NCBI RefSeq assembly: GCF_025273675.1
Contig: NZ_CP045809.1
Coordinates: forward strand, 4,898,001 to 4,962,000
DNA length: 64,000 nt
Direction of reading: 5' to 3'
From: Gordonia pseudamarae
GTDB taxonomy: Bacteria; Actinomycetota; Actinomycetes; Mycobacteriales; Mycobacteriaceae
A program made the position numbers and the translations under genes. Position 1 is the first letter of the stretch. Each line of letters starts with the position of its first letter. The notes under the pieces are model-generated. The model did not search any database. It saw only the letters and a list, made by a program, of their open reading frames with translations, and was not told where the DNA came from. Positions 5,840-43,373 of the stretch are shown here, piece after piece.

Positions 5840-5856
5840 TTCCCGATGGACGGGAG
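5840..5856. promoter_or_regulatory. Recurring palindrome TTCCCG-ATGGA-CGGGAG in a divergent promoter
   Basis: The arms are nearly perfect complements with a 5-bp spacer. The site lies 69 bp before the hsaB-like start and 88 bp before the OYE-like start, and could serve both. It is one of about ten matching sites in the catabolic region. Confidence 0.6.
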
Positions 5857-5885
5857 GGTTGTTCGGACGGCGGCCGGACCACATG

Positions 5886-5900
5886 ACCACTCAGCAGGAG
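5886..5900. promoter_or_regulatory. Weak copy of the recurring palindrome near the OYE-like gene
   Basis: ACCA-CTCAG-CAGGAG keeps the spacer consensus (CTCAG) but has degenerate arms. It lies 44 bp before the start at 5944, a spacing also seen at several other copies. Confidence 0.3.
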
Positions 5901-5943
5901 ATGCCCCTGGTCAACAGGATTCGCTGCTCATAGCGTCTGCCCC

Positions 5944-7137
5944 ATGACCATCTCCCTCCCGCCGGACGTACTGGCACCAGCCCGACTCGGACCGATCAAC
6001 ATGCGCAACAGAATCATCAAATCCGCGACTTTCGAGCACATGTCGCCCGGTGCGCTCGTGAGTGACGACCTGATCGAATTCCACCGGGCGGTTGCCGCCG
6101 GCGGCGTCGGTATGACCACGGTCGCGTATTGCGCGGTCGCACCGGAAGGTCGAACCGAGGCCGACCAATTGTGGATGCGCCCGGAGGCGGTGCCCGGTCT
6201 GCGCGCGCTGACAGACGCGGTCCATTCGCATGGCGCGGCGGCCTCCGCCCAGATCGGGCATGCCGGACCGGTCGCCAACTCGAAGTCGACCGGCCATCCC
6301 GCGCTCTCCTCCTCGCGTCGTTTCAGCCCGATGGGCGCTCGGATGGTGCAGGCGGCCACCCTCGCCGACATCGAACGCATTCGTCTCGCCCACGGTGACG
6401 CCACGAGTCTCGCGATCGAATCGGGATTCGACGCGGTCGAGATTCACTTCGGGCATAACTACTTCGCCAGTTCGTTCCTCAGCCCGAACCTCAACCACCG
6501 CGACGACCGCTACGGCGGCAGCCTCGAGAATCGCGCGCGTCTGCTCCGCGAGACCGCGGCCGAGGTTCGTCGTGCAGCCGGCAACAACATCGCCGTCCTC
6601 GCCAAACTGAACATGGACGACGGTGTCCCCGGCGGGTTCTGGCTCGACGAGGCGATCACGGTGGCACGCTGGCTCGAAGAGGACGGCAATCTCGACGCGA
6701 TCGAGTTGACCATCGGCAGTTCACTTCTCAATCCGATGTACCTGTTCAAGGGTGAGGCGCCGCTCGCGGAGTTCGGCGCGATCATGCCTCCGGTCATGCG
6801 GGCCGGCATAAAGATGTTCGGCAAGTACTTCATCCGCGAGTACCCGTACCAGGACCTCTTCATGCTCGAGCAGGCGCGACAGATCCGCGACGCCGTAGAG
6901 ATGCCGCTGATCCTTCTCGGCGGGGTGACCGACAAAGAGGATATGGATCGGGCGATGGCGGAGGGATTCGAGTACGTGGCGATGGCACGCGCTCTGCTTC
7001 GGGAACCGGACCTGATCAACCGGATCGCCAAGGACCACCACGCCAGATCGCTGTGCATCCATTGCAATAAGTGCATGCCGACGATCTTCTCCGGGACTCG
7101 ATGCGTCCTCGCCGGCACCGGCAGCACCAACGACTGA
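5944..7137 (+). CDS. Old Yellow Enzyme-like NADH:flavin oxidoreductase, second paralogue
   Basis: The 397-residue protein is a clear paralogue of the product at 1618, with the same landmarks: PARLGPINMRNR, QIGHAGPVANSKSTG, GHNYFASSFLSP, LLGGVTD and the C-terminal CIHCNKC with a following cysteine. As in the first copy, the cluster-binding cysteines are kept although the C-terminal FAD/NAD domain of 2,4-dienoyl-CoA reductases is missing. Electrons may therefore come from NAD(P)H or from a separate protein. The copies may act on different double bonds of a steroid. The gene stands alone, convergent with the frameshifted dehydrogenase gene. Confidence 0.88.
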   Translation: MTISLPPDVLAPARLGPINMRNRIIKSATFEHMSPGALVSDDLIEFHRAVAAGGVGMTTVAYCAVAPEGRTEADQLWMRPEAVPGLRALTDAVHSHGAAASAQIGHAGPVANSKSTGHPALSSSRRFSPMGARMVQAATLADIERIRLAHGDATSLAIESGFDAVEIHFGHNYFASSFLSPNLNHRDDRYGGSLENRARLLRETAAEVRRAAGNNIAVLAKLNMDDGVPGGFWLDEAITVARWLEEDGNLDAIELTIGSSLLNPMYLFKGEAPLAEFGAIMPPVMRAGIKMFGKYFIREYPYQDLFMLEQARQIRDAVEMPLILLGGVTDKEDMDRAMAEGFEYVAMARALLREPDLINRIAKDHHARSLCIHCNKCMPTIFSGTRCVLAGTGSTND

Positions 7138-7158
7138 CACCACCCTGCCGTCGACTAC

Positions 7159-7196
7159 ATCGGCTGGCTCCGACCGGTCAGGTCGGGCCGGCCGAT
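7159..7196. terminator. Hairpin between convergent genes, likely bidirectional terminator
   Basis: ATCGGC and CCGACC on the left pair with GGTCGG and GCCGAT on the right, with a small internal mismatch and a 5-bp loop. It lies in the 69-bp gap between convergent stops. There is no clear T-tract. Confidence 0.5.
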
Positions 7197-7206
7197 GGGT
7201 GTCGGA

Positions 7207-11745: not shown

Positions 11746-11749
11746 GTCG

Positions 11750-12637
11750 CTAGACGCCCAGCGGCTTGATGTTCGGATTGGACCACGCCGGCGGCTCGCG
11801 CCGGGGAAGTTCACTCGTGCCGTCCAGCGTCATCACGGGAATGCCCGCGGCCCACGGGTAGTGGAGGCTGAACGTGACGAGTCCGGTTCGCTCGGCTGCC
11901 GGTGCGGTACACATCTCCAGAACCGTCTGCGCCAGGTACTCGACGGGTTCGGTCTCGTATCCCTCGGGAAGCAGAGCGGCCGCGCCGGGAGTCATGATCG
12001 CGGTGGACGGCCCGACGGCGTTGACCGCAATCCCGGCATCGAGAACCTCGGCGGCGAGACCCTGCGTGAATCGGTGTTGCGCGGCTTTCGCGGCGGCATA
12101 GATGACGTCACCGGAGGTCTTGTTGTAGTCGCGGTACGGACGGATCGGGCTCAGTCCGGTGGACGATCCGATGTTGACGATCCATCCGGCACCCTGTTTG
12201 CGCATGTGTCCGAGCGCGGACTGACTGAGCCGGAAGGGAATACGCAGGTAGTGGTCGAGAGTACGATCAAAGGTCGCCAACGTCATGTCCTCGATCGAAC
12301 TGTAGTCGGCGAAGCCCGCGTTGTTGACCAGGATGTCGATCCCGCCGACCGCCTGGACCACCGAGTCCACGAGAACGTCTCGCTGCTCGGCATTCTCGAG
12401 ATCTGCCGGCATGGCGATCGCGGTGCCACCCATCTCCTCGATCAGGGCCACGGTCTCGTCCAGGGACCCTTCGATCGTCTGCACACTGCCGCTGCGCACG
12501 GACGGGCTGGGCCGGGCTGCGCGTGCGGTGACGACGACGGTCGCACCCTCCGCGGCCAACCGGGTGGCGATACCCCGGCCGATTCCTCGGCTGCTCCCGG
12601 TCACCAGGGCCGTGCGCCCGACCAACCGCTGTGTCAT
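11750..12637 (-). CDS. SDR family oxidoreductase
   Basis: The 295-residue SDR has GSSRGIG, NNAGFAD, a serine in NIGSSTG and the active-site segment YAAAKA. An insertion around residues 40-60 is somewhat longer than in the standard fold. It is the first gene of the operon SDR-SDR-BVMO-dehydrogenase running down to 7207. One copy of the recurring palindrome lies 86 bp upstream of its start. The substrate is unknown; an alcohol or hydroxysteroid dehydrogenase is likely. Confidence 0.88.
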   Translation of the reverse strand: MTQRLVGRTALVTGSSRGIGRGIATRLAAEGATVVVTARAARPSPSVRSGSVQTIEGSLDETVALIEEMGGTAIAMPADLENAEQRDVLVDSVVQAVGGIDILVNNAGFADYSSIEDMTLATFDRTLDHYLRIPFRLSQSALGHMRKQGAGWIVNIGSSTGLSPIRPYRDYNKTSGDVIYAAAKAAQHRFTQGLAAEVLDAGIAVNAVGPSTAIMTPGAAALLPEGYETEPVEYLAQTVLEMCTAPAAERTGLVTFSLHYPWAAGIPVMTLDGTSELPRREPPAWSNPNIKPLGV

Positions 12638-12722
12638 GTTGCATCAACTCCAAATACTGTGCGCTGGTTCACACTTGTCTTGACCATACTGAGGGCTTGA
12701 CTGCCGCCCGAGTCGGTGGTGG

Positions 12723-12737
12723 ACCACTCAATGGGAG
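12723..12737. promoter_or_regulatory. Recurring palindrome, half-degenerate: ACCA-CTCAA-TGGGAG
   Basis: The right arm and spacer match the consensus; the left arm is shortened. It lies 86 bp before the start of the SDR-SDR-BVMO operon and overlaps the last codon of the esterase gene upstream. Confidence 0.5.
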
Positions 12738-13720
12738 GCGGGATCCGCGGGTGCCGACGGCGCGAGTGCGTCGCGCATCATCGCCCACAGCCGCTCGCGG
12801 GCGGGTGGGGTCAGCGAGAGCGACGGGAAGGTGAGGAAACCGTGGAACAGTCCGTCGAACCGGTGTGCGCGGACCGGCACACCGGCGGCGGCCAGGCGAC
12901 GCGCGTACTCCTCACCCGCGCTGCAGGGTGGATCCAATTCGGCGGTGGCCACCAGCGCGGGCGGTAGTCCCGCAAGCGATGTCGCTCGCATCGGGATCAC
13001 GTAGGGGTCTTGCGAACCGCCGGGTGCGTACTGCTCCCAGTACCATCGCATCGCCTTCGTGCTGTTGTAGTAGCCGACACCGTAGAGCCGATAGGACTCG
13101 GTCTCGAAGTCGTCGTCGATGACCGGATACAGCAGTATCTGCGCCGCGATCGACGGCCCCCCGTGATCCCGCGCGTACAGCGCCGTCGCCGCAGCCAAGT
13201 TGCCTCCGGCGCTGTCGCCGGCCAACGCGATACGCGACCGGTCACCGCCGTAGTCCTCGATGTTGCCCGCCGCCCAACGCAGCGCGGAGTACACGTCACG
13301 CATCGCGTCCGGGGACCGATGCTCCGGGGCCAGCCGGTAGTCCACGGCCACGACGATCGCGGCGACGCACTCGGCCATCGACCGACAGAACTCGTCGTGG
13401 CTGTCCAGATCGCAAAAGACGAATCCTCCGCCGTGAGCGAACACGATCACCGGCAGCAACGCCGGCGCATCCCCCAACTGCGACTCATCGACGTTGTGGG
13501 GCACGAAGATTCGCAGTGCGAGATCGCCACCCTCGCCCTCGATCGTCACGTCACGGGCGATCCGCATGTCCGGCTCGTGGGCCAAGGGCGCGCGCCGGGA
13601 TGTGATGATGTCCCGTAGCTCGGGAGCGGAGAACTCCGTCACGTCCGGGAATCCCGCCTCCAGGGCGGCGAGCATCATCTCCACGTCCGGATGGAGGTCA
13701 TCGCGGCGAGAAGCGGTCAT
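12728..13720 (-). CDS. HSL-family alpha/beta hydrolase (esterase) coupled to a steroid-type BVMO
   Basis: The 330-residue carboxylesterase belongs to the hormone-sensitive lipase family: FAHGGGFVF supplies the oxyanion hole, GDSAGG the nucleophilic serine, and the C-terminal ELDPP and LFHGF segments the acid and histidine. Its start overlaps the stop of the Baeyer-Villiger gene by ATGA. In progesterone breakdown a BVMO turns the C17 acetyl group into an acetate ester that an esterase then removes, so this pairing fits a steroid-ester hydrolase. It is the last gene of the unit that begins at kshA. Confidence 0.88.
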   Translation of the reverse strand: MTASRRDDLHPDVEMMLAALEAGFPDVTEFSAPELRDIITSRRAPLAHEPDMRIARDVTIEGEGGDLALRIFVPHNVDESQLGDAPALLPVIVFAHGGGFVFCDLDSHDEFCRSMAECVAAIVVAVDYRLAPEHRSPDAMRDVYSALRWAAGNIEDYGGDRSRIALAGDSAGGNLAAATALYARDHGGPSIAAQILLYPVIDDDFETESYRLYGVGYYNSTKAMRWYWEQYAPGGSQDPYVIPMRATSLAGLPPALVATAELDPPCSAGEEYARRLAAAGVPVRAHRFDGLFHGFLTFPSLSLTPPARERLWAMMRDALAPSAPADPASH

Positions 13721-15321
13721 CGGATGTCGAATCCCTTGTAGCCCGCGGCGGCCACGTCGTCGAGGATCGCACCGTAGTTGGCGAATCCCCCGATGTAGGG
13801 CATGAACACCCTGGGCTTACCCGGAATGTTCGCGCCCATGTACCAGGAGTTGGCGGTTGGGAACAGCGTACCCGCGGCCTTCTCGTTGCATTCGGCGACC
13901 CAGTCGTCGACCGACTGCTCGGTTGCCTCGATCGCCGAACCGCCGTGCGCGTCCACGTACCCGATGCACGCGGAGATCCAGTCGACGTGCTGCTCGGCAC
14001 CGAGAACCATGTTCGCGAGGACACTGGGGCTGCCGGCACCGGTGGTCATGAACAGGTTCGGGAAACCGTTGGCGGTCAGTCCGAGGTAGGTCCGCGGACC
14101 CGCCGACCACTCATCGAGGAGCGTGCGACCGGCCCGGCCGCGGATGTCGATGCGCGACAGGGTTCCCGTCATCGCATCGAATCCGGTGGCGTAGACGATG
14201 ACATCGAGATCGAAGTGTTCTCCGCTGGTGTCGATGCCGGTCGGCACGATGGTCTCGATCGGTGTCTTACGGAGGTTGACGAGCGTGACGTTGTCACGAT
14301 TGAAGGTGGTGAAGTACCCGGAATCGGTGACGATGCGCTTGGTCCCGATGGGATGGTCGGTGGGGATCAGCTCGTCGGCCAGGGCCGGATCGTTCACCAT
14401 GTCGCGGATCTTGGCCTCCACATACTCGCGTGCGGTGTCGTTGGCCTCCTTGGAGATCGTCTGATCGGGGAAGGCCTTCGCGAACAGATAGCCCCCGCGA
14501 TTCCACCACTCGTCATAGACCCGGGTCCGCTCCTGCGCACTGACCTCCAAGGCGCCCTTGGGATATGCGGAGTTCGGGGTGCCGCCGCCGCTCGCCCGCG
14601 AGAGCCGCCGCCGTTCGTCGTAGTCGGCCTTGACCTCGGCGATGAATTCCTCGGACAACGGCCGGTTGCCGGCTGGGATGGAGTAGTTGGGCGTGCGCTG
14701 GAAGACCACCACCCGCTCGGCGGACTCCGCGATCACCGGAATCGATTGAATCCCGGACGATCCCGTACCGATCACCCCGACGCGCTTGCCGCTGAAGTCG
14801 ACCGGATCGTGTGGCCACTCACCGGTGTGATAGCTCTCGCCGGCGAAGGACTCCGCACCCGCGATGTCGGGGCGGTTGGCGGTGGACAACACGCCGGTGG
14901 CGAAGATGACGAACCGAGCGGTCTTCACGACGCCCGTGTCGGTGGTGACGGTCCACGTCGAGTCGGTGTCGTCCCAGACCGCGCTCACCACCTTGGTCTC
15001 GAACGAGTAGGCGCTCCGCAGGTCGTGACGGTCGGCGACGTGCTCGAGATACCGCAGGATTTCCTCCTGCGTGGCGAATCGTTCCGTCCAGGTCCATTCC
15101 TGCTGCAGTTCGGAGTCGAAGGAGTAGGAGTAGTCGATGCTCTCCACGTCGCATCGCGCGCCGGGATATCGGTTGTGGTACCACGTGCCGCCGACGTCGG
15201 CGGCACTCTCGAACCCGGCGATGCTGCGCCCCTGCGCGCGCAGCTTGTAGACGGCATACAAGCCGGATATCCCGGCGCCGACGACGATGACGTCGACATC
15301 GGTACGCGGCAGCTTAAACAT
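13717..15321 (-). CDS. Baeyer-Villiger monooxygenase, steroid monooxygenase-like
   Basis: The 534-residue protein has the type I BVMO layout: FAD motif GAGISG, GGTWYHNRYPGARCD, fingerprint FAGESYHTGEWPHD and NADPH motif GTGSSG. The stretches RCDVESIDYSYSF, TGSSGIQSIP and RVFMPYIGGF resemble the Rhodococcus steroid monooxygenase (STMO) and cyclohexanone monooxygenase group as I remember them. STMO converts progesterone to testosterone acetate. ATG 15321 was chosen because the longer frame adds a 51-residue arginine/proline-rich lead. It is followed by an overlapping esterase gene, which strengthens the side-chain-removal reading. Cyclic ketone oxidation remains possible. Confidence 0.88.
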   Translation of the reverse strand: MFKLPRTDVDVIVVGAGISGLYAVYKLRAQGRSIAGFESAADVGGTWYHNRYPGARCDVESIDYSYSFDSELQQEWTWTERFATQEEILRYLEHVADRHDLRSAYSFETKVVSAVWDDTDSTWTVTTDTGVVKTARFVIFATGVLSTANRPDIAGAESFAGESYHTGEWPHDPVDFSGKRVGVIGTGSSGIQSIPVIAESAERVVVFQRTPNYSIPAGNRPLSEEFIAEVKADYDERRRLSRASGGGTPNSAYPKGALEVSAQERTRVYDEWWNRGGYLFAKAFPDQTISKEANDTAREYVEAKIRDMVNDPALADELIPTDHPIGTKRIVTDSGYFTTFNRDNVTLVNLRKTPIETIVPTGIDTSGEHFDLDVIVYATGFDAMTGTLSRIDIRGRAGRTLLDEWSAGPRTYLGLTANGFPNLFMTTGAGSPSVLANMVLGAEQHVDWISACIGYVDAHGGSAIEATEQSVDDWVAECNEKAAGTLFPTANSWYMGANIPGKPRVFMPYIGGFANYGAILDDVAAAGYKGFDIR

Positions 15322-15376
15322 GAGAGGTGTCCTTAGGTAATCGGGCGGCTTGGGTTTCAGATGCTTGCTGAGTAGA

Positions 15377-16342
15377 TCAGGCGGTGGCGGACGAGCTTGT
15401 GACGGCGGCCTCGTTGTCGCCGACGCCCGCTGCCTCGCGTATCGCCGCAACTTCCTTGGCCCACAGCCATTCATGTCCCCAATAGCTGTCCTTGGTGATT
15501 TCCTCGGCCGTGTAGTACGACTCGTCGACGAGCTTTCCCTCGGTGCCGAACTCGATGTCCCAGCCGCCCGGGACGCGGACGTAGAAGGAGATCATCTTGT
15601 CGTTGGTGTGCCGGCCGAGTGTCGAGGACACCGGGAAGTCGTGCGCGTTCACCTGGTCGTAGGCCCGCCCTACCGCGTCGAGCGAGTCGACCTCGACCAT
15701 GACATGGATGACGCCCGGGTCACGCCCCTCGGTGGTGGGCATCAACGCAAGGCTGTGGTGTCGCTGGTTGACGCCGAGGAACCGAATGCGCAGAGGCGGG
15801 TTGACGCCGACCGGTGACATCCGGAACGCCCCACGGGACAGGAAACCCAGTGTCTCGGTGTAGAACCGGAAGGATTCGTCGAAGTTTGTGGTGGGCATCA
15901 CCACGTGCCCCATACCCTGGCCTCCGGTGATGAACCGCTGGCCGTACTTGGTGAGCACCGGACTGTGGTCGAGCACCGGACCAAAGAATATCTCGAGCGG
16001 GGTGCCACCCGGATCCTTCAGACACAGGCCCCCCTCGACCCGGCGATCGTCGGCGAGTTCCTGTGACATCGGCTCGTATGGGTGCGCCTCGGCGTCGAGC
16101 ACGGCCGCCACCTGCCGCAGCGCCTGGACATCGCGCACCTCCCAGCCGACCGCGGTGACACGGTCGACGTCGCCGCGTTCGACGGTGAAGCGGCACTGCC
16201 GTTCATCCATCCGGAAGTGCAGAGCATCACCCTCGACACCCGATCCCGACGCAAAGCCGAGAACATCGAAACCCAATGTGCGCCAACGGTCTATATCGGT
16301 GGCTTGGACGCGGACATAGCCGAGCCCCTTGATTTCGGTCAT
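15377..16342 (-). CDS. hsaC: HsaC-type extradiol dioxygenase (ring A catechol cleavage)
   Basis: The 321-residue type I extradiol dioxygenase has two vicinal-oxygen-chelate modules. The iron ligands in the second module are visible: His146 in GMGHVV, His213 in IHVMVEV and Glu264 in WDIEFG. The active-site His pair in RHHSLAL is also present. The protein resembles HsaC, which cleaves 3,4-DHSA, the catecholic ring A of 9,10-seco steroids; BphC-like biphenyl enzymes share the fold. Placement next to hsaA and kshA supports the steroid role. The start at 16342 lies 29 bp after the hsaA stop. Confidence 0.92.
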   Translation of the reverse strand: MTEIKGLGYVRVQATDIDRWRTLGFDVLGFASGSGVEGDALHFRMDERQCRFTVERGDVDRVTAVGWEVRDVQALRQVAAVLDAEAHPYEPMSQELADDRRVEGGLCLKDPGGTPLEIFFGPVLDHSPVLTKYGQRFITGGQGMGHVVMPTTNFDESFRFYTETLGFLSRGAFRMSPVGVNPPLRIRFLGVNQRHHSLALMPTTEGRDPGVIHVMVEVDSLDAVGRAYDQVNAHDFPVSSTLGRHTNDKMISFYVRVPGGWDIEFGTEGKLVDESYYTAEEITKDSYWGHEWLWAKEVAAIREAAGVGDNEAAVTSSSATA

Positions 16343-16371
16343 GGTTTGACTCCTCTCGGTTCGGCGTCGGA

Positions 16372-17613: not shown

Positions 17614-18807
17614 TCAGCCCGCAGATACGGCGTCTTGTGCGTGGGTGAGGTTGGGCGCGAACGCAGTACGTCCGGCGGCGAGGTTCTCGTCGACCTCGGC
17701 CTGCCAGTTCTTCAGTGCGCGTTCGGTGTCGATCTCGAACTCGAACCGGTTCACCATCTCCGGTTCGATGTCGTCGACATCGACGTAGAACTGTTCGTAC
17801 CAGCGGCGGAGCTGATAGACGGGTCCGTCTTCCTCGGACAGCAGCGGGTTGTCAATGCGCGACTTGTTCTTCCAGATCGCGACATCCTGCTCGAAGCCGA
17901 TGGATATCCCCTTCGCGACGGCCTGGGCGATCTGTTCGGCCGCGGCGTCGTCCATGCCGGCGGGCTTCTCCACCATCACCCCGTACTGCAGCCGGAACGA
18001 CGTAGGCGTCACCGGATAGTGGCAGTTGATCAGGTAGATATTGGGTTCACCCTCCCCGGTCCGACCCGCACTCCACAATTTGTCGATCATGTAGGACGGG
18101 CCGAAATAGGTTGCATGAGACTGATTCTCGGAGCTGTAGTTGGTGCTCTGACTCACCCCGGCAGCATCCGCGCGCGGACGTGAACGCATCATCTGCGTCG
18201 CTGTGTGGCCCTCGAAGATGTTCACGAAGTAGGTCGGCATGCCGTAGTGCACGTAAAAGAAGTGCGCCATATCGACCACGTTGTCGACGATCTCGCGGCA
18301 ATGCGAGCCCTCGACGTCGACGTAGTTCCACACCCAGTCGGTCCAGCCGGCATCGCCGTAGATCGGGATCTCCGGGATCGTCAACTCCTCCAGGGGTTTA
18401 CCGCCCTCCGGGTCGTTCCAGACGAACAACTGTCCACTGACCTCCATCGAGGGCCACGCACGCGTCCGGGCCAGTGGCGGAACACGGCGTGCGTAGGGGA
18501 TCCCCGAGCACTTTCCGTCGCCTCGCCAGCGCCAGTCGTGGAACGGGCATGCGATCGAATTGCCTTTGACGCTGCCGTGCGCGAGATTACCGCCCATATG
18601 CGGGCAGTAGCCGTTGAGGATGTTCACCTTGCCGTCCTCGCCCGCGAAGACCACGAGGTCGGTGCCGAAGGCCTGAACCTGATGTGGCTGACCATCATTG
18701 AAATCGCGGACCAGTCCGAGGCAGTGCCACCCGCGGGCGAATCGCTCCGGGGGGACACCGGTGTCGATGATCCGCACCTTGGCTTCGGTGTCAGACGTGG
18801 AACTCAT
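17614..18807 (-). CDS. kshA: 3-ketosteroid 9alpha-hydroxylase, Rieske oxygenase component KshA
   Basis: The 397-residue Rieske oxygenase has cluster ligands Cys68, His70, Cys87 and His90 (CPH, then CPFH). The mononuclear iron site is His182 and His187 in DMAHFFYVHYGMP with Asp308 in GFEQD, plus the bridging Asp179. PYARRVPPLARTRAW and LLSEEDGPVYQLRRWY are typical of KshA. With KshB it hydroxylates C9 of AD or ADD; together with Delta1-dehydrogenation this opens ring B. It heads the unit kshA-hsaA-hsaC-BVMO-esterase, and a strong palindrome lies 94 bp upstream. Confidence 0.95.
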   Translation of the reverse strand: MSSTSDTEAKVRIIDTGVPPERFARGWHCLGLVRDFNDGQPHQVQAFGTDLVVFAGEDGKVNILNGYCPHMGGNLAHGSVKGNSIACPFHDWRWRGDGKCSGIPYARRVPPLARTRAWPSMEVSGQLFVWNDPEGGKPLEELTIPEIPIYGDAGWTDWVWNYVDVEGSHCREIVDNVVDMAHFFYVHYGMPTYFVNIFEGHTATQMMRSRPRADAAGVSQSTNYSSENQSHATYFGPSYMIDKLWSAGRTGEGEPNIYLINCHYPVTPTSFRLQYGVMVEKPAGMDDAAAEQIAQAVAKGISIGFEQDVAIWKNKSRIDNPLLSEEDGPVYQLRRWYEQFYVDVDDIEPEMVNRFEFEIDTERALKNWQAEVDENLAAGRTAFAPNLTHAQDAVSAG

Positions 18808-18900: not shown

Positions 18901-18917
18901 CTCCCACACAATGGGAG
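18901..18917. promoter_or_regulatory. Recurring palindrome CTCCCA-CACAA-TGGGAG upstream of kshA
   Basis: The two 6-bp arms are perfect complements with a 5-bp spacer. The site lies 94 bp before the kshA start, in the 123-bp gap after the kshB stop. Confidence 0.65.
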
Positions 18918-20072: not shown

Positions 20073-20088
20073 GTCCACTCAGAGGCCC
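20073..20088. promoter_or_regulatory. Weak proximal copy of the recurring palindrome before kshB
   Basis: GTCCA-CTCAG-AGGCCC keeps the CTCAG core and part of each arm. It is 48 bp before the kshB start, with a stronger copy further upstream. Confidence 0.3.
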
Positions 20089-20140: not shown

Positions 20141-20156
20141 TCTCGCTGAACGGGAG
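20141..20156. promoter_or_regulatory. Recurring palindrome TCTCG-CTGAA-CGGGAG between kshB and the IclR gene
   Basis: The right arm is intact and the left arm degenerate, with the 5-bp spacer kept. It lies 116 bp before kshB and 133 bp before the divergent IclR gene, so it could control either or both. Confidence 0.5.
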
Positions 20157-20288
20157 GCCAGAATATTCAAGACCGCGGCGGGGGTGTGTTCTCATGGCTG
20201 TGGATTCAGGACCGGGTTTGGTACCGTCGCCGCGCGCGGGTAACGTGACACACATCATAGCGTTGTTGAAGGTTGCTCGGGAGGTTCG

Positions 20289-21086
20289 GTGAGAAGGTCG
20301 CGCACCGACGGGGTTCCGGTATCAGTCGTCGACCGGGTATCGCTCGTGCTCGACACCTTCAACGGGGCCGGGCCGCTCACGCTGGCGCAGGTGACGGCCC
20401 GTACCGGGCTTCCGCGATCGTCTGTTCACCGCCTCCTCGACCAACTCGCGAACGCGGGCTGGCTCGCCCGCGCCGATCAGACCTACGAATACGGTGTCAA
20501 GGCTTACGAGGCCGGGCAGGCAGCCCTCAATCAGAATCGGCTTCTGCACGGAGCCATTCCGACGATGCGTGCCTTTGCCCAACGAACCGGTTTTACGGTC
20601 CAGGTGGGCGTCGTAGATCACGGCGACACCGTCTACCTGGCGAAGGTTAACGGTCGGATATCCGGCCCCACACCCACGCGCGTCGGCCTGAGAGTGCCGG
20701 CCCACCTCACCGCGACAGGCAAGGCCATCCTCGCCAACTCGGCACCCTCGATCGAGGAGATCGATCTGTCCGAACTGAGGCGAACCGACACCGGGGCCCT
20801 CGTTGCGCGGACATCGCTCAGCATCACCTCAGTCGATCGACTTCGCGCCGACCTGCAACTGACACTCGATCGGGGTGCCGCCTTCGATCGCGGAGAACTC
20901 TTCCCAGGCATCGCCTGCGTCGCGACCTCGATCGGTCCGCCCGACCACCATTACGGAAACACCGCGGCGGTCGCCGTGTGCGCACCCGTCAGCTCGATGG
21001 ATCTGCGGCAGATGGTGGGTCCGGTTCGGGTCGCAGCGCGCGAGATCTGGGATCGCTGCGTCTCGGCGGACCTCGCCAAGCACTGA
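20289..21086 (+). CDS. IclR family transcriptional regulator (first)
   Basis: The 265-residue protein has an N-terminal winged helix (LTLAQVTARTGLPRSSVHRL) and an IclR effector domain with DTVYLAKV, PAHLTATGKAIL and a final VAAREIW helix. GTG 20289 is preceded by GGGAGG. It is divergent from kshB and sits in the middle of the steroid genes, so it is the leading candidate to bind the recurring 17-bp palindrome. That link is inference. Its likely ligand would be a steroid or ring-cleavage intermediate. Confidence 0.9.
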   Translation: MRRSRTDGVPVSVVDRVSLVLDTFNGAGPLTLAQVTARTGLPRSSVHRLLDQLANAGWLARADQTYEYGVKAYEAGQAALNQNRLLHGAIPTMRAFAQRTGFTVQVGVVDHGDTVYLAKVNGRISGPTPTRVGLRVPAHLTATGKAILANSAPSIEEIDLSELRRTDTGALVARTSLSITSVDRLRADLQLTLDRGAAFDRGELFPGIACVATSIGPPDHHYGNTAAVAVCAPVSSMDLRQMVGPVRVAAREIWDRCVSADLAKH

Positions 21087-21104: not shown

Positions 21105-21120
21105 GTCCGCACAATGGGAA
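21105..21120. promoter_or_regulatory. Recurring palindrome GTCCG-CACAA-TGGGAA before an SDR gene
   Basis: The right arm and spacer match the kshA site; the left arm is partly degenerate. It lies 105 bp before the SDR start at 21225. Confidence 0.5.
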
Positions 21121-22117: not shown

Positions 22118-23677
22118 TCAGGCGAGAACCTTTGCCGCCGAGGGCATGCGCGCGATCATGTCGGTCACGGCCCGATAGGCCATCACCATCCCGGAACCGA
22201 GCGGGGTACCCGGTCCCGGATAGGCACTGCCCGAGATCGACGCCGACGAGTTGCCCGCGGCGTACAACCCGTCAATCGAGCGGCCGCCGACACCCTGGAC
22301 CGCACCGTTACGGTCGATCACCGCGCCGCCCTTCGTCCCGAGGTCGCCAAGGACCAGGCGAACCGCATGGAGTCGCTTGCCGCCGATGGGGAGCAGACAG
22401 TCGGCCGCCACCGTGCCGCCCACGAAGAACCGCCCGTATGGATCCTCGCCGCGCGCGAAGTCGTCGTCGTGACCCTGTCGCGCGAATCCGTTGAAACGGT
22501 CGATGGTCGCAGTGAGTCGTTCGCCGTCGACGCCGATGCTCTCGGCCAGTTCGGCGGCGCTGTCCGCGGTATGCCATAGACCGGCCGCCGTCATCTCACC
22601 GATAATCGGTGCGGGAGAGGCGATCGCCGGCATCTGATCGCCGGCGGTGTCGTCGAAGACGAACCAGAACTCGGTACCCGGTTCTGAAAGCATCCTTTCA
22701 CGCATCGCGCGACCCATCTGATCATAGGGAAGCAGTTCGTTGGCGAAGCGCTGCCCGCTTCCGTCCACGACGATGCCCGCTCGCAGTCCGAGGGTGAAGA
22801 CGGCCCGACCGTTGGGGAACAGGGTCGCGGGAGCCCACCAGCACTGATCGAGCAGGTCGAGTTTCGCTCCCGCTTCCTGCAACATCCTGACCGCGTCGCC
22901 GGTTCCGGTGTCCGGGCTCGACGACGTCCAGTCTGCCGTGGGCATCTGTGTCCACTCGCGACGCAAGGCCGCATCGGCCTCGTAGCCTCCCGCGGCGACG
23001 AGCACCCCGCCCCTGGCCTCGAGGTTCTGGGGGCCGTCGTCACCGTCCACGATCACTCCGACGACCCGGCCGGCCTCCTGTACGAGGCTCAATGCCCGGG
23101 TACGCAGCCGGAGATCCGCATTCTCGGACTGGTCGAGGGCCAGCACGAGGCGGGCGATCCATGCCTGCCCACCGATCAATACCGACCGGTCGACAGGAAC
23201 GTCGAACTGGTCGGCCGACACCATCGGCCGGATGTCCGACAATCGACTGCCGACTTCCTCGGCCGTGATCTCACGCGCGAAGATGCTGCGGCCGTTGGCA
23301 CTTCGCCCGGGTGCTGCGAAGTAGTCCGGGAACGGCTGGTGCATGAGCGGGATTCCGGCGCTGTTCTCCAGGAAGCCGGCGACCTCGGGGCCGGTCTCCA
23401 GGAAGGCTCGCTGCACATCTTCGGGAGTGCGATCGCCGACCACGGTGTGGAAGTACTCCAGTCCCTTGGCCACCGAGTCGTCGACGCCGTCGCGCGCGAG
23501 GACGTGATTACCCGGGAGCCAGACGCTCCCACCGGAGTACGCCGATGTACCGCCGAAGTACTCGGTCTTCTCGATCACACACGTGGACAGCCCCCGCGTG
23601 GCCGCGGCGACCGCACCTGCCAACGCCGCCCCGCCGGAACCGATCACCACCACGTCATAGCTCTTGTCCCACGCCAT
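22118..23677 (-). CDS. kstD: 3-ketosteroid Delta1-dehydrogenase-like flavoprotein
   Basis: The 519-residue FAD-dependent dehydrogenase has GSGGAALAGAVAA, TSAYSGGSVWLPGNHVL, LVAAGGYE and a C-terminal SAYPGPGTPLGSG. That last segment holds the Tyr and Gly expected in the KstD active site, and another Tyr lies in the FPDYF stretch. KstD introduces the C1-C2 double bond into 3-keto steroids, which with KshAB opens ring B. Delta4-dehydrogenases have the same fold, so the exact position of desaturation is not certain. It is a single gene with a palindrome copy 79 bp upstream. Confidence 0.85.
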   Translation of the reverse strand: MAWDKSYDVVVIGSGGAALAGAVAAATRGLSTCVIEKTEYFGGTSAYSGGSVWLPGNHVLARDGVDDSVAKGLEYFHTVVGDRTPEDVQRAFLETGPEVAGFLENSAGIPLMHQPFPDYFAAPGRSANGRSIFAREITAEEVGSRLSDIRPMVSADQFDVPVDRSVLIGGQAWIARLVLALDQSENADLRLRTRALSLVQEAGRVVGVIVDGDDGPQNLEARGGVLVAAGGYEADAALRREWTQMPTADWTSSSPDTGTGDAVRMLQEAGAKLDLLDQCWWAPATLFPNGRAVFTLGLRAGIVVDGSGQRFANELLPYDQMGRAMRERMLSEPGTEFWFVFDDTAGDQMPAIASPAPIIGEMTAAGLWHTADSAAELAESIGVDGERLTATIDRFNGFARQGHDDDFARGEDPYGRFFVGGTVAADCLLPIGGKRLHAVRLVLGDLGTKGGAVIDRNGAVQGVGGRSIDGLYAAGNSSASISGSAYPGPGTPLGSGMVMAYRAVTDMIARMPSAAKVLA

Positions 23678-23755: not shown

Positions 23756-23772
23756 TTCCCGCTCAGCGGTCG
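23756..23772. promoter_or_regulatory. Recurring palindrome TTCCCG-CTCAG-CGGTCG upstream of kstD
   Basis: The left arm and the CTCAG spacer are consensus; the right arm is intact for three bases. It lies 79 bp before the kstD start. Confidence 0.5.
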
Positions 23773-30132: not shown

Positions 30133-31127
30133 CCGATATCACGCACGTCGAAAGCGATGTCCCACTCGATGTCTGGGATCCCGACGTCGCACCCATGGTC
30201 GAGAGAATGCGGCAGTCGGGGGCGACTTCGTTCCGGACGGTCGGCGTCCAGGGCGTCCGGAACAATCTCGAATCCATCGTCCGGCCCACCGGACCCGCGA
30301 TGGCGTCCGTGCATGACGCCGATTGCGAGGGACCCGGCGGGCCGATCCCACTGCGCATCTATCGCCCGCCCACCGCGCCCGGGTCCGGCGCTCCCGCACT
30401 CGTCTGGTTCCACGGTGGCGGCATGATCATGGGCTCTCTCGACTCGTTCGACCGCCTCGCCCGCGACGTCGCGGCAGCCACCGGGGCGGTCGTGGTCAAC
30501 GTCGATTACCGGCTGGCACCCGAGCATCGGTATCCGGCCGGGCACGACGATGCGTACGCCGCGCTGTGCTGGGTGAATCGGCACGCCGACCAGATCGGGG
30601 TCGACCGCGCGCGGATCGGTGTCGGCGGGGACAGCGCCGGCGGCGGCCTGGCCGCGGCGACGGCCCTGCGGTCACGCGACGAACACGGCCCGAACATCTG
30701 CCAGCAGATCATGTTCTACCCTGGGCTGGAGCGCCCGGTCGACCGGCCGTCGATGAGGCGATTCGGCAACAGCGCATTCCTCACCGTCGACGACATCACC
30801 TGGATGAAGAACCTCTACCTCGGCGACGATCCGGCCCTCGACGACGAGTACGGGAGCCCGGCACTGGCGACCGACCTCGCCGGGCTCCCACCGGCGATCG
30901 TCGTGACCGGATTCGCCGATCCGCTGCGCGACGGCGTCGAGGAGTACGGCCGCCGTCTGCAGGACGCCGGTGTACCGACCGCAATTCTGCGCTATCCCGG
31001 TGTGGGACATGGCTTTGCCATGCAGACATCAACGGTCGCACGGGCACGTACGGCGATGGCCGAGGTCGGCGCGCTGGCTGCGGCGCGGTTCAGTGCCGGT
31101 CAGGCGGATTCGACCGTCTCGGGATAG
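30129..31127 (+). CDS. HSL-family alpha/beta hydrolase (esterase)
   Basis: The 332-residue esterase has WFHGGGMIMG for the oxyanion hole, GDSAGGG for the nucleophile, DYRLAPEHRYPA and a C-terminal GVGHGFA with the catalytic His. Its start overlaps the GntR stop by ATGA, making it the last gene of the operon from 25091. Its 3' end overlaps the convergent SnoaL-like gene by 28 bp. The substrate may be a steroid ester or lactone, but nothing in the sequence decides this. Confidence 0.88.
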   Translation: MTDITHVESDVPLDVWDPDVAPMVERMRQSGATSFRTVGVQGVRNNLESIVRPTGPAMASVHDADCEGPGGPIPLRIYRPPTAPGSGAPALVWFHGGGMIMGSLDSFDRLARDVAAATGAVVVNVDYRLAPEHRYPAGHDDAYAALCWVNRHADQIGVDRARIGVGGDSAGGGLAAATALRSRDEHGPNICQQIMFYPGLERPVDRPSMRRFGNSAFLTVDDITWMKNLYLGDDPALDDEYGSPALATDLAGLPPAIVVTGFADPLRDGVEEYGRRLQDAGVPTAILRYPGVGHGFAMQTSTVARARTAMAEVGALAAARFSAGQADSTVSG

Positions 31128-31621
31128 ACCTGCTCGAACCAGCCCCGCTGCGTGGCGTCGAAGGTACCGAGTTTCATCGCGTGCCGACCCCACGCCTTGA
31201 TGACGTCGAGGAAGGTCGTGACATCGTAGACGTCTTCCTGCCCGCGGAAGCGCCCGTCTCCGGCATAGGTGAGGATACTGACGTGCGGTGCGCTGTAGGT
31301 GGTGCCGTCGCCGGGATCACTCATCACGTTGTCGCACTTGACCACGATCTTCCCGGCCACCTCGTCGATGACATGCCAGTGTTCGTGGAACGCAACGGTA
31401 TGCGAACCCGGGAACTGGGCGAGACTCGGTTCCGCCCACGCCCAGATCCCCTCGCGTCCCTTCAGGGTGCCGGCCATCTGCTCGTGATACACCACGTCGT
31501 CGGTGTACAGCTCGAGGTAGTCGCGCCAGCTGCGCTCACCCGCCCCGGCCTGGTTGACGGTCGTCAGCCAGTTCTGAAACGCCGACTCCAATTCGTCTCT
31601 GCTCCAACTATTCTCGTTCAT
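31100..31621 (-). CDS. SnoaL/NTF2-like domain protein
   Basis: The 173-residue protein has the cone-shaped NTF2-like fold signature: FQNWLTTVNQAG near the start, YLELYTDDVVYHEQMAG, GREGIWAWAEP, and a histidine/tryptophan-rich strand FHEHWHVID. ATG 31621 was selected because the longer frame runs through an arginine-rich region overlapping the reductase gene. Related proteins include ketosteroid-isomerase-like hydratases, but the KSI triad is not obvious here. It has a palindrome copy 44 bp upstream and its own promoter seems likely. Confidence 0.8.
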   Translation of the reverse strand: MNENSWSRDELESAFQNWLTTVNQAGAGERSWRDYLELYTDDVVYHEQMAGTLKGREGIWAWAEPSLAQFPGSHTVAFHEHWHVIDEVAGKIVVKCDNVMSDPGDGTTYSAPHVSILTYAGDGRFRGQEDVYDVTTFLDVIKAWGRHAMKLGTFDATQRGWFEQVYPETVESA

Positions 31622-31664: not shown

Positions 31665-31680
31665 GCCCGCTGAGCGGGAT
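31665..31680. promoter_or_regulatory. Recurring palindrome GCCCG-CTGAG-CGGGAT upstream of the SnoaL-like gene
   Basis: The CCCG and CGGG arms are complementary, with the self-complementary type CTGAG spacer. It lies 44 bp before the start at 31621. Confidence 0.55.
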
Positions 31681-31701
31681 GTTTAATTCGGTACTGCCGG
31701 G

Positions 31702-32979: not shown

Positions 32980-32983
32980 CGCC

Positions 32984-33304
32984 TCACGCCTGTTCGTCGG
33001 GGATGGTCACATGCAGATCGGTTCCCTCGCTGAGAACCAGCTGACACGACAACCGCGAGTTGTCCTCACGATCGGACGCGGTGCACTCGAGCATGTCGTC
33101 CTCGTCCTCGGAGGGATCATCGAACAGTTTCATCTCTGTGGGGTCGAGGTACACGTGGCAGGTCGCGCAGGACAGCGCGCCGCCGCACTGGCCGACGATG
33201 CCGTTCACGCCGTTCTGCACCGCCGTGGACATGACCGAATCCCCGACCGTACCGTCGATGACTCTCTCGACTCCGTCCGGCTGGGTGTAGAACACCTTGG
33301 GCAC
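32984..33304 (-). CDS. 2Fe-2S ferredoxin (adrenodoxin/putidaredoxin type)
   Basis: The 106-residue protein contains CGGALSCATCH and a later RLSCQL cysteine, the four-cysteine pattern of vertebrate-type 2Fe-2S ferredoxins that serve P450s. GTG 33304 is the only sensible start. It lies between the P450 gene (10-bp gap) and the reductase gene (4-bp gap), so the electron chain reductase-ferredoxin-P450 is complete in this operon. Confidence 0.94.
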   Translation of the reverse strand: MPKVFYTQPDGVERVIDGTVGDSVMSTAVQNGVNGIVGQCGGALSCATCHVYLDPTEMKLFDDPSEDEDDMLECTASDREDNSRLSCQLVLSEGTDLHVTIPDEQA

Positions 33305-33314
33305 TTGGGTTCTC

Positions 33315-34562: not shown

Positions 34563-34593
34563 TGGTGACTCCGGGTGGGCTGGGTGTGACGGG

Positions 34594-35502: not shown

Positions 35503-35549
35503 GTTCTTCTCCTGTTTCCGGAGGGATGAGCCGGGGGACTGAGATGGCG

Positions 35550-36521: not shown

Positions 36522-36622
36522 GTACTGGGTCCTCCGGTGATGATGTTGAACAACAACGTAATTGAGCGGTCGAGCGACTCGTGAACTGGGTCACATCGCC
36601 TTGTCACCGTGACCCTAGGCGC

Positions 36623-37438
36623 TCATTCGAGGCGCAAATCGGCATCTCCCACCCAGTGGGCACTCTGTTCGGAGCGATCGGCGTCATGCCTGCGTGCAGC
36701 GTCCTCGCCGGTGGTTTCGGTCGTCTGTCCACCGCCCAGATATGCGCGCTCGATACGTTGTGGATCGGCCCGGAAGGCCGATGCGTCGTCCTGGTCCACG
36801 ACGCGGCCGTGGACCAGGACGCTTGCGCGGTCGGCAGCTGCCAGCGCGAGGTGGACATGCTGCTCCACCAATACCACCGCCATGCCCTCGTCCCGCGCCA
36901 GCGCGACGAGAACCTCGAGGATCTCGTCGACGATGACGGGCGCCAGACCCATGCTCAGCTCGTCGATGAGCAGCACTTTGGGGTGCTGCAGAATGGCACG
37001 GCCGATGGCGAGCATCTGTTGCTCACCACCGGAGAGGCGCCCGGCGTCGACCTTCAATCGCCGCCGCAGCGAGGGGAAGCGATCGAGGACGGTGTCGAGC
37101 GCGGCGCGTCGGCCGGCACGTTCGCGGACAGCGAGTTTCAGGTTCTGCTCGGTCGAGAGCAGGCGGAACAGCGCCCGATCGTCGGGTACCAGCACCATCC
37201 CGGACCGCACCGCCTGACGCGGATTCCCACTGGCCACAGCATGGCCGTCGACCCTCACCTCACCCGCTGCGCGGGGAAGCAGTCCGGACAAGGCCATCAG
37301 CAGTGTGGTCTTGCCCGCACCGTTCGGTCCGAGCAGACAAGTGATCTGCCCCGGGTCCAATGTCAGATCGATGCCTCGCAGACACGGGATACCCTTGCTG
37401 TAGCCGGCGTCGAGTTTGACGCATTCCAAGACCGACAT
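36623..37438 (-). CDS. Liv-type ABC transporter ATPase (LivF)
   Basis: The 271-residue ATPase has Walker A GPNGAGKTT, the signature LSGGEQQMLAIGR and Walker B KVLLIDELSMGL, with the LivF spacing. The last 25 residues extend past the usual end and are charged. It starts 2 bp after the fused permease/ATPase gene, so it is part of the same operon and supplies the second ATPase of the importer. A palindrome for the downstream SMP-30 gene lies inside its 3' end. Confidence 0.93.
   Translation of the reverse strand: MSVLECVKLDAGYSKGIPCLRGIDLTLDPGQITCLLGPNGAGKTTLLMALSGLLPRAAGEVRVDGHAVASGNPRQAVRSGMVLVPDDRALFRLLSTEQNLKLAVRERAGRRAALDTVLDRFPSLRRRLKVDAGRLSGGEQQMLAIGRAILQHPKVLLIDELSMGLAPVIVDEILEVLVALARDEGMAVVLVEQHVHLALAAADRASVLVHGRVVDQDDASAFRADPQRIERAYLGGGQTTETTGEDAARRHDADRSEQSAHWVGDADLRLE
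36646..36661. promoter_or_regulatory. Recurring palindrome CTCCCA-CCCAG-TGGGC upstream of SMP-30
   Basis: CCCA and TGGG arms with a 5-bp spacer lie 125 bp before the SMP-30 start. The site is within the 3' end of livF, so the operator overlaps coding sequence. Confidence 0.5.
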
Positions 37439-37440
37439 CG

Positions 37441-40212: not shown

Positions 40213-40236
40213 GGCGACCCTCCAGCCGTCTGTAAC

Positions 40237-41475: not shown

Positions 41476-41616
41476 GATTTCGTACTCCTTGTCGGTGAGC
41501 GACGACCGATGTCTCGCTCTGATCGGCCGGAACGGGCTTGGGTTGCGTTGACGAGCGTCGGTTCCGAAGCCGGCGCGCCATTATGAACTCGACGATGTCG
41601 CGGTCAGCTCCGACGA

Positions 41617-41633
41617 TTCCCGGTCACCGGGAG
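41617..41633. promoter_or_regulatory. Recurring palindrome TTCCCG-GTCAC-CGGGAG upstream of the importer
   Basis: This is one of the best copies, with five complementary pairs in the arms. It lies 142 bp before the livK start in the 363-bp divergent region that also holds the IclR-gene palindrome. The rest of that region has no ORF I would support. Confidence 0.6.
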
Positions 41634-41769
41634 ACTCGCTCCTCGGGTTCGAACCCGGTCGCCCGGCGGTGGCGACGCCTCGACGACCTGCGGACGCCCC
41701 TGTCCCCGGGCACCCCGTGCACGTGGCCCACTTCACAAATGCGCCGAAATGTGCAATATTCCTCATGAA

Positions 41770-41792
41770 GGCTATTTCTAATCGAAATAGCC
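41770..41792. promoter_or_regulatory. Perfect inverted repeat GGCTATTTC-N5-GAAATAGCC upstream of the second IclR gene
   Basis: Two 9-bp arms with a 5-bp spacer end 46 bp before the IclR start at 41839. It differs from the CCCG/CGGG family. Position suggests autoregulation by the IclR protein. The flanking AT-rich stretch is a likely promoter. Confidence 0.65.
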
Positions 41793-41838
41793 AGTTCAAG
41801 CCCACCCTGCCCGCACAGCTTCGCAGCAAGGAGTCATC

Positions 41839-42612
41839 ATGACCGTCACCCAGGACCTCGATGTCACCGCCGCGTCGCCCAGCGCAACCCTGGACCGCCT
41901 GTCGCTGGTGCTCGACGCGTTCGATGGCCGCGACAGTCTCAGCCTGGCCGAGGTGGTCCTACGCACCGGCCTCCCCCGCTCGTCGGCTCACCGCATGCTC
42001 GACCGGCTGGTCGCGCTTCGTTGGCTGCGGCGAGAGGGCCGCTCATACAGTCTCGGTATCCGGCTGGTCGAACTCGGTTCGCTCGCAGTCCACCAGGACA
42101 AGGTGCACTCCGCCGCCATGGAACACCTGCATCAGCTCTATCGGACCACCGGCATGGTGGTTCACCTCGCGGTCCTCGACGGCGACGACGTGGTGTATCT
42201 GGAAAAGATCGGCGGCCGATTCGCTGCCCACGTACCGACTCGAGTCGGCGGTCGCAGACCGGCTCACACGTCGGCGCTCGGGGCCGCACTTCTCGCGTTC
42301 AACGGGACCACGGGAGCACGTTACGACCACATCCGCGACCACGGCTACGCGATCGAGCGCAACGGAGCGCTGCGCGGATTCGGGTGCATAGCTGCGCCGA
42401 TCGGCCCGATCGGCGAGGCCACCACCGCGGTCTCGATCTGTGGACCGCTACGCCACATGGCATTCGACAGCCGGATGACCTCACCGGTCTTGCTGACGGC
42501 ACAGGCCGCCTGGCGCAGCATGTCCGAGGGAGTTCGGGTCACTCCGACACTCGCTCGGCGAAACATGCTCCGCCGCATGCCCACCGCGCCCAGCGTGCTG
42601 GCCGAGGGATGA
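41839..42612 (+). CDS. IclR family transcriptional regulator (second)
   Basis: The 257-residue protein has the winged helix LSLAEVVLRTGLPRSSAHRML and the effector domain (DDVVYLEKIGG, PAHTSALGAALL, GFGCIAAPIG). It resembles the first IclR protein at 20289 in the helix-turn-helix. AAGGAG precedes ATG 41839. It is divergent from the importer operon, so it may control livK-livHMG-livF as well as itself. Confidence 0.9.
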   Translation: MTVTQDLDVTAASPSATLDRLSLVLDAFDGRDSLSLAEVVLRTGLPRSSAHRMLDRLVALRWLRREGRSYSLGIRLVELGSLAVHQDKVHSAAMEHLHQLYRTTGMVVHLAVLDGDDVVYLEKIGGRFAAHVPTRVGGRRPAHTSALGAALLAFNGTTGARYDHIRDHGYAIERNGALRGFGCIAAPIGPIGEATTAVSICGPLRHMAFDSRMTSPVLLTAQAAWRSMSEGVRVTPTLARRNMLRRMPTAPSVLAEG

Positions 42613-42641
42613 GGCCGGCGCCGTCGTACACCCCTCTGCAC

Positions 42642-43310
42642 TCACGCCTCCACGTTCGCTTCTGCAGAAACCGAACGCCAATTACCCGGATGCCGGGGCT
42701 GCGGCAGGTCCTGGGCGTCTCGAACCGCCAGCTCACGGTATCTCGTTGCCGCTTCGTCGATATCGACCAGCAGTTGCTCGGCTAGCTCGATCTCTGCCCG
42801 GAAGTACCGCTCCGACCAGCGCAGACTCATCTGCGAGAACGCCCACCCCGGTTCGGTATCCGAGTGCGCGGCACGCAGGCCGGCCTGCTCGGCACGGTCG
42901 CGAAGGTTGTCGATGTGCTCGCGCACGACGCGTTTGAGCTGCTCTGGTTCCTGCAGGTGCCCCATCCACATCCGAAGCATCACACCGTGTTTGAGCACCG
43001 GCATGTCGACGTCGGCGTCACGCGACCAATTGCGCAGTGCGCGTACACCTTCAGATGTGATGCCATACAGCCTACGGCCGCGAACGCCCTCGTCGGAGAC
43101 AACACGGGACGTCACCAGATCGAGTTCCTCGAGCTTCTTGAGCTCACCATAGACCTGGCTGATCGACGGGCTCCAATAGAAGAACCCGATGCTCCAGTCC
43201 GCCCACTTCTTGAGGTCGTTGCCGGTCAACTCCTCGCCGAAGGCGAGCATGCCGAGAACCGCCCAGCTCGTGGCTGGCAGGTTCGGGTATGAATCTGCAT
43301 CGGATTCCAC
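42642..43310 (-). CDS. PadR family transcriptional regulator
   Basis: The 222-residue protein has an N-terminal PadR winged helix (SWAVLGMLAFGEELTGNDL, then GELKKLEELDLVTSRV and RRLYGITSEG). A helical dimerisation region with HIDNLRDRAEQ follows. GTG 43310 is used; no strong ribosome site is visible. It is divergent from a pair of small barrel-protein genes and probably controls them. A copy of the recurring palindrome lies between. Confidence 0.88.
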   Translation of the reverse strand: MESDADSYPNLPATSWAVLGMLAFGEELTGNDLKKWADWSIGFFYWSPSISQVYGELKKLEELDLVTSRVVSDEGVRGRRLYGITSEGVRALRNWSRDADVDMPVLKHGVMLRMWMGHLQEPEQLKRVVREHIDNLRDRAEQAGLRAAHSDTEPGWAFSQMSLRWSERYFRAEIELAEQLLVDIDEAATRYRELAVRDAQDLPQPRHPGNWRSVSAEANVEA

Positions 43311-43356
43311 GAGGCATCACACTACTCCGCTCACCTGGAGCAATGGCCAGCACTGT

Positions 43357-43373
43357 CTCCCGGCCACTGGGAA
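43357..43373. promoter_or_regulatory. Recurring palindrome CTCCCG-GCCAC-TGGGAA in a divergent promoter
   Basis: The outer arms are mostly complementary, with a 5-bp spacer. It lies 43 bp before the barrel-protein gene at 43416 and 47 bp before the PadR start at 43310. Confidence 0.5.

Follow-up and report, generated by a model that had tools for sequence, protein, structure and literature searches.

The window analyzed here is the whole 64,000-nucleotide (nt) stretch of the Gordonia pseudamarae chromosome at positions 4,898,001 to 4,962,000 of NZ_CP045809.1, and the part to the left of its tRNA gene carries a steroid catabolic cluster in which a short palindrome, TCCCR-N5-YGGGA, recurs near promoters. 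Family searches in this part found hsaA-, hsaB-, hsaC-, and hsaD-like genes, all below the NCBI curated cut-offs, together with kshA, a kshB-like reductase gene, kstD-like genes, two Baeyer-Villiger monooxygenase (BVMO) genes, esterase-like and short-chain dehydrogenase/reductase (SDR) genes, a P450 with redox partners, a Liv-type importer, two IclR genes (IclR-A and IclR-B), a PadR gene, and a GntR-like gene. The hsa, ksh, and kstD genes of actinobacterial cholesterol catabolism are controlled by KstR and KstR2, TetR-type repressors with operators (KstR consensus TNNAACNNGTTNNA) that differ from the TCCCR word. No KstR or KstR2 consensus was found in positions 1-44800, which speaks against membership of the cluster in the KstR regulon. 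Right of the tRNA gene, a KstR-like palindrome, TAGAACGTGTTCTA, was seen at 56277-56290, just 5' of the gene at 56294. The substrate of the cluster could plausibly be a pregnane or an androgen, because the nearest solved relative of the BVMO at 13717 is the steroid monooxygenase 4aos; activity of the Rhodococcus rhodochrous steroid monooxygenase on progesterone has been reported (PMC12239570). The steroid cluster of Rhodococcus ruber Chol-4, annotated with iclR, padR, and chnB (PMC6498646), has similar gene names including IclR and PadR, a likeness of annotation, and the accessible part of that source describes no operator.

The earlier note described the repeat as a 17-mer, YTCCCR-N5-YGGGAR, listed at 13 places, all left of the tRNA gene and with a constant 5-bp spacer. 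The palindrome is real, but the form quoted was too strict. A pattern scan of the 13 places found exact matches at four (5840, 18901, 41617, and 43357), one mismatch at 36646, two at 20141, 21105, 23756, and 31665, and no match with up to two mismatches at 2880, 5886, 12723, and 20073. With two mismatches allowed, the 17-mer matched 34 times in the window and 43 times in shuffles, so that in this relaxed form it has no power as proof. The operator core is the 15-nt TCCCR-N5-YGGGA, whose arms and spacing are constant among relatives while the inner five bases vary. Five exact cores were counted in positions 1-44800, where 14 alternative spacers between these arms gave 0.57 on average; the five are the four exact sites and one at 13611, which is intragenic and absent from the first list. 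By the same control, exact cores numbered 15 against 1.57 in the same genus, 19 against 2.64 in other genera of the family, 4 against 0.79 in clusters with only an IclR-B-type regulator (B-only clusters), and 9 against 1.00 in other related IclR clusters, one of these nine, in locus L042, having been the reason for fetching that locus. Over spacers of 0-12, the N5 form was found 34 times in 30 IclR-B loci and 17 times in 19 hsaB loci, against 0-2 at any other spacer; the window's own locus belongs to both sets, which also overlap in some sites. Spacer 5 is clearly set apart from the others.

An unbiased arm scan of the noncoding DNA of the cluster ranked TCCC-N7-GGGA first of 5376 arm/gap combinations (log10 P -5.4, about 0.02 corrected). 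The pair ranked 1st in the same genus, 2nd in other genera, 3rd in the IclR-B loci, and 8th in other related clusters, and it was not among the eight best pairs in the B-only set. In the whole genome, 4 of the 14 exact 17-mers lie in this cluster, which makes up less than 1% of the chromosome; bare-core counts per genome fail to separate genomes with the cluster from genomes without it. Enrichment was strong by spacer controls, genome background, and relatives, and, in agreement with the earlier note, the region right of the tRNA gene holds neither an exact core nor a profile match of at least 8. The profile, trained on sites outside the window, scored 16.5-21.0 at 5840, 18901, 20141, 41617, and 43357, and below 0 at 2880 and 20073. 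Two further places with good profile scores, 13611 and 42293, are intragenic and were not added as sites.

The palindromes are accompanied by a -10-like hexamer at a nearly constant distance. At sites outside the window, TANNNT at +36..41 from the palindrome center was found 64 times in 276 half-flanks, against 2.6 expected, and the B-only clusters (7 in 30 half-flanks; 0.4 expected) and other related clusters (13 in 54; 0.5 expected) gave a similar excess. In the window, the 26 flanks of the 13 sites hold nine such hexamers, with about 0.5 predicted from the noncoding TANNNT rate of 0.0030-0.0036 per position. They fall at eight sites (5840, 5886, 12723, 20141, 23756, 31665, 36646, and 43357); only the much weaker NANNNT was seen at 18901, 21105, 41617, and 2880, and neither form at 20073. 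The hexamer start clusters at about 37-40 nt from the center: at +38 in 14 and +39 in 3 of the 17 sites of the 43416 gene, at +37/+38 in 10 of 12 hsaB sites (window included), and at +40 in 13 of 25 PadR sites, with CATAAT, read by eye, at +39/+40 in all five livK sites (window included). None of the 26 kshA sites, the window's among them, has TANNNT at the usual place, and all have NANNNT at +37..39, which is CAAGCT in 13. At 18901 and 41617, the NANNNT-type hexamer is kept in relatives. This spacing rescued weak sites, among them 5886, 12723, 23756, 31665, and 36646.

At least four genes (5944, 31621, 43416, and PadR) start 6-8 nt 3' of the hexamer and therefore look leaderless; the TAGCGT of the 5885 site lies 7 nt before the ATG of gene 5944, and the TATGGT of the 31665 site lies 6 nt before the ATG of the SnoaL-like gene. 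From these starts and the near-fixed hexamer distance, we infer that the palindrome center lies near -50 from the transcription start, an activator-like position. The classes of distance to start codons proposed earlier (43-48 and 69-142 bp) reflect differing leader lengths, the near-constant quantity being the distance to the -10 hexamer. Many IclR proteins act as repressors, and an IclR protein that binds these sites, represses, and is released by a steroid ligand could silence two promoters at once from the divergent site at 43358. This mode of action is unlikely, however, since a center near the inferred -50, constant from one promoter to another and upstream of the -10 element instead of over it, fits contact with RNA polymerase better than blocking, and activation appears the better of the two modes.

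Conservation was scored as a site with at most one mismatch within 230 nt upstream of a homologue start. Six of 59 same-genus genomes and 32 of 401 in the family sample, own genome included, have an IclR-A match (E 1e-60), and IclR-B (E 1e-45) was found in all 31 IclR-A genomes searched, with the incomplete G295 left out. Many sites remain beside the same genes in three same-genus relatives with different gene orders, and those of kshA, PadR, and the 43416 gene persist where the gene order of relatives is rearranged. Counting the window, the site precedes 24 of 26 kshA homologues (23 of 25 outside the window), the two without it being 62-63% paralogues, all four livK homologues, and, in exact form, all 17 homologues of the 43416 gene. 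Of 30 IclR-A-type loci, the window's among them, 28 have a site of at most one mismatch in the 420 nt upstream; for some, this is the kshA site alone. Outside the window, a site was found at 2 of 15 kstD2 homologues (G002 and G018), 4 of 18 SDR 11750 homologues, none of 10 OYE2 homologues (OYE, old yellow enzyme) with at most one mismatch, and not at the one other SMP-30 start compared; G030 has an exact core near its SMP-30 start and G018 a 1-mismatch site before its homologue of the SnoaL-like gene. Several window sites therefore rest on promoter spacing and score. In sum, ten of the 13 listed copies were upheld by palindrome score, promoter spacing, or conservation, those at 2880 and 20073 were not, and the 21105 site is a weak candidate, with a profile score of 4.6 and NANNNT only.

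The site also stands before 25 of the 28 PadR homologues examined, window included, as would be expected if the PadR-like protein were itself the binder. This is extremely improbable: 15 of 20 loci scanned have no PadR match in the fetched stretch, which was all that the scan covered (G031 and G036 have a PadR gene elsewhere), and eight of the 15 (L042, L146, L149, L153, L154, L156, L158, and L200) carry an exact core, L042 having been chosen for its exact core and L200 not being blind, as one of its sites had been seen earlier in the short locus L024. In G030, moreover, the PadR gene is relocated while the site stayed by the 43416 gene.

IclR-A and IclR-B both have PF09339 and PF01614 above cut-off, which places them in the IclR family, and the word accompanies the related IclR group across actinobacterial genera. 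Exact cores occur in the B-type clusters L147, L148, L150, and L153, from genomes without an IclR-A match at E 1e-60, and the B-type-only cluster L152 has none. Among 40 further IclR loci, the four with a [PA]RSTxHR recognition helix hold four exact cores against about 0.3 expected (three in L200, one in L177 with PRSTTHR, none in L201 and L202), and the 36 with other helices hold one against about 2.1, no excess; both expectations are sums over the per-locus table of the 40. In L200, the IclR protein is the only regulator among the 10 proteins scanned. In a test set of 20 loci, taken from 42 places found by IclR-B similarity, 16 contain an exact core. Exact cores number 21 against 0.79, and hexamers 15 against 0.7, in the 13 loci from other families (12 genomes); the corresponding figures for the seven loci from another genus of the family are 7 against 0.29 and 6 against 0.1.

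The two regulators might divide the work, IclR-A binding the TCCCR sites and IclR-B only GCTATTTC-N5-GAAATAGC at its own promoter; that palindrome, or a near variant of it, is conserved ahead of many IclR-B genes. Such a division is improbable, because clusters with only a B-type IclR still carry TCCCR sites and the recognition helices of IclR-A and IclR-B are nearly identical. A possible match of two site classes, TCCCRY...RYGGGA near kshA and TCCCGG...CCGGGA near PadR, with the two regulators was set aside on informal grounds, because G030 and the B-only clusters seem to mix the classes.

The word itself is already known. Lcin1, TCCCGGT[C/G]ACCGGGA, was reported in 2020 for the lithocholate-induced cluster E of Nocardioides simplex VKM Ac-2033D, with KR76_18060 as the presumed factor, and the accessible part of that report assigns no regulator family and gives no promoter spacing (PMC7593942). 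The window site at 41618 is an exact Lcin1 match and the other window sites share its arms and spacer and differ inside; loci L228 and L230, fetched by IclR similarity, contain TCCCGGTGACCGGGA. A steroid-monooxygenase-like BVMO, esterases, and a pair of IclR genes set the window cluster apart from that of N. simplex, as far as that source describes it. KR76_18060 is induced by lithocholate and discussed there among orthologues of KstR3 (PMC7593942), so that a TetR-type, KstR3-like protein could be thought to bind the word. We consider this very improbable, since no TetR-type protein was found among the proteins scanned left of the tRNA gene, a few small open reading frames lying outside the scan and a regulator encoded elsewhere being conceivable, and KR76_18060 may itself be an IclR protein. 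A literature search on IclR and steroid regulation, which returned mostly listings without supplements, found no publication joining the word to IclR. Within that search, its assignment to IclR and its spacing to the promoter appear new; its wide occurrence is a further addition made here.

The word was compared with the group-1 operator of the IclR family, GKTYCRY-W3-RYGRAMC (PMC8222616), in the accessible part of that source. It is likewise an odd-length palindrome with R and Y five bases apart around the center (13/19), C at 11 and 12, and T at 9, the inner Y/R at 14/18 being only partly kept. Table 5 of the same source gives positions 28, 29, 30, 32, and 33 (Arg47, Ser48, Thr49, Gln51, and Arg52 of TtgV) as contact or critical residues; when the PRSSxHR segment is aligned, these positions hold R, S, S, H, and R in both IclR-A and IclR-B. 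The links described between Arg28 and G/C at 8/24 and, weakly, between His32 and C at 10 agree with both proteins and the word. Tandem sites lie 18-22 nt apart in many group-1 groups (PMC8222616); of 13 pairs under 120 nt found here, five are at 39-40, one at 22, and one at 17. Judged from sequence, an IclR protein is likely to bind the word, and one regulon with an IclR binder, as the earlier note had proposed, is the best reading of the conserved sites, the motif that accompanies a related IclR group, and the group-1 geometry.

Several observations weigh against this reading. The word has C at 10/22 in place of the group-1 T, one letter per half, and is therefore called IclR-like rather than a strict group-1 match, and residue 27 is Pro in IclR-A and IclR-B, whereas the accessible text links His27 with G/C at 10/22 (PMC8222616). 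No exact core was found in L226, L233, L244, and L245 of the test set, in L152, L155, L157, L162, L201, and L202, or in 10 of 25 loci of one relative set, a 1-mismatch site being present in most of these ten. In the steroid clusters L159 and L163, the IclR helices are PRSSAHR/PRSTTHR, yet no TCCCR site is present. The IclR helix alone thus does not predict the word. Other palindromes (GTGA-N6-TCAC, TATT-N9-AATA, TTGG-N2-CCAA, and TCAA pairs) beat TCCC-N7-GGGA in places in the arm scans of relatives, TATT-N9-AATA occurring 20 times against 0.11 expected in the 30 IclR-B loci, and the promoter of IclR-B bears a different conserved palindrome. Composites of palindrome and hexamer with a profile score of at least 6 number eight (seven sites, one counted in both directions) in the 44.8-kb cluster and one in a 400-kb sample of the same genome, a rate that may flatter the cluster because eight composites also occur in 138 kb of own-genome loci fetched for an exact palindrome, two of them the fetched palindromes themselves and two near the IclR gene at 992810. 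Finally, the related genomes are not independent, so that the counts are not independent either and the P values overstate.

Table 1. Candidate operator sites and genes of the window (".", no strand; distances from the palindrome center)
Feature	Position	Strand	Associated gene or role	Details
Operator core TCCCGATGGACGGGA	5841..5855	.	hsaB	exact; profile 19.8; TATGGT 38 nt away, - strand
Degenerate candidate operator GACCACTCAGCAGGA	5885..5899	.	OYE-type gene at 5944	profile 2.7; TAGCGT at +39
Degenerate operator	12722..12736	.	SDR 11750-12637 (-)	profile 8.0; TATGGT at +41
Operator TCCCACACAATGGGA	18902..18916	.	kshA	exact; -10-like CAAGCT at +38, - strand
Operator TCTCGCTGAACGGGA	20141..20155	.	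kshB / IclR-A	profile 16.5; TACCTT at +38 towards kshB
Weak candidate	21105..21119	.	SDR 21225	profile 4.6; GATGAT at +39, only NANNNT
Operator	23757..23771	.	kstD2 22118-23677 (-)	profile 9.2; TAGCGT at +37
Operator	31665..31679	.	SnoaL-like gene 31100-31621 (-), Pfam SnoaL_2	profile 13.3; TATGGT at +39
Operator	36647..36661	.	SMP-30/P450 genes 35550- (-)	profile 11.5; TAGGGT at +37
Operator TCCCGGTCACCGGGA	41618..41632	.	between livK and IclR-B	exact Lcin1 word; exact; profile 20.7; CATAAT at +40 towards livK
Operator TCCCGGCCACTGGGA	43358..43372	.	between PadR and 43416 gene	exact; profile 21.0; TACGTT at +38 (+), TAGTGT at +41 (-)
IclR-A	20289..21086	+	candidate binder	recognition helix PRSSVHRLLDQL; HTH_IclR + IclR_C
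IclR-B	41839..42612	+	candidate binder	recognition helix PRSSAHRMLDRL; HTH_IclR + IclR_C
PadR-like regulator	42642..43310	-	predicted target, not binder	PadR Pfam just above cut-off
kshA, 3-ketosteroid 9alpha-hydroxylase oxygenase	17614..18807	-		KshA_C + Rieske
Baeyer-Villiger monooxygenase	13717..15474	-		best solved relative steroid monooxygenase 4aos, 744 bits

Further palindromes and loci were recorded beside these features. A perfect palindrome, GGCTATTTC-TAATC-GAAATAGCC, lies at 41770-41792, about 50 nt before IclR-B, and CRP-like GTGA-N6-TCAC sites, imperfect in the window and exact in many relatives, lie upstream of IclR-A (20245-20258) and IclR-B (41723-41736). L159 (G018, 5.04-5.06 Mb) and L163 (G014) show CATTGATC-N4-GATCAATG-like, ATTGATC-type palindromes instead of the TCCCR site. 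Elsewhere in the own genome, L042 (982-987 kb) is a second catabolic cluster with the IclR gene at 992810, containing acyl-CoA-dehydrogenase-type, flavin reductase, hydrolase, dioxygenase, and luciferase-like genes, with palindrome and hexamer composites at 983238 and 986835. L044, where an exact site at 1789437 with its TAACGT at +38 precedes an SDR gene, is a possible outlying member. L048 has the AT-centered palindromes TTCCCAAATATTGGGAA and CTCCCATATTTTGGGAA at 3301728 and 3315669, 14 kb apart and without a listed composite, which perhaps belong to another regulator.

Taken together, TCCCR-N5-YGGGA is probably the operator of IclR-family regulators (IclR-A, IclR-B, or both) that control a steroid catabolic cluster outside the KstR system. 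An IclR dimer would occupy each palindrome, whose center lies some 50 nt before the inferred transcription start; in the presence of a steroid-derived ligand the bound IclR would help RNA polymerase to start at the -10 hexamer 37-40 nt downstream. The regulon is real and widely kept. Rather doubtful, though possible, is a wider picture in which IclR-A and IclR-B read the same operators as two sensors of one switch for non-cholesterol steroids, each controlled from a CRP-like site of its own, and in which the palindrome near -50 is an old activator element governing parallel clusters for steroids, pregnanes, and bile acids in several families of Actinomycetes. Little is known of how actinobacterial steroid clusters outside the KstR system are regulated, and linking the orphan word Lcin1 to IclR proteins, at a near-constant distance from the promoter, provides a testable model that predicts targets in many genomes, with possible use in strain design for steroid biotransformation and in steroid sensors.

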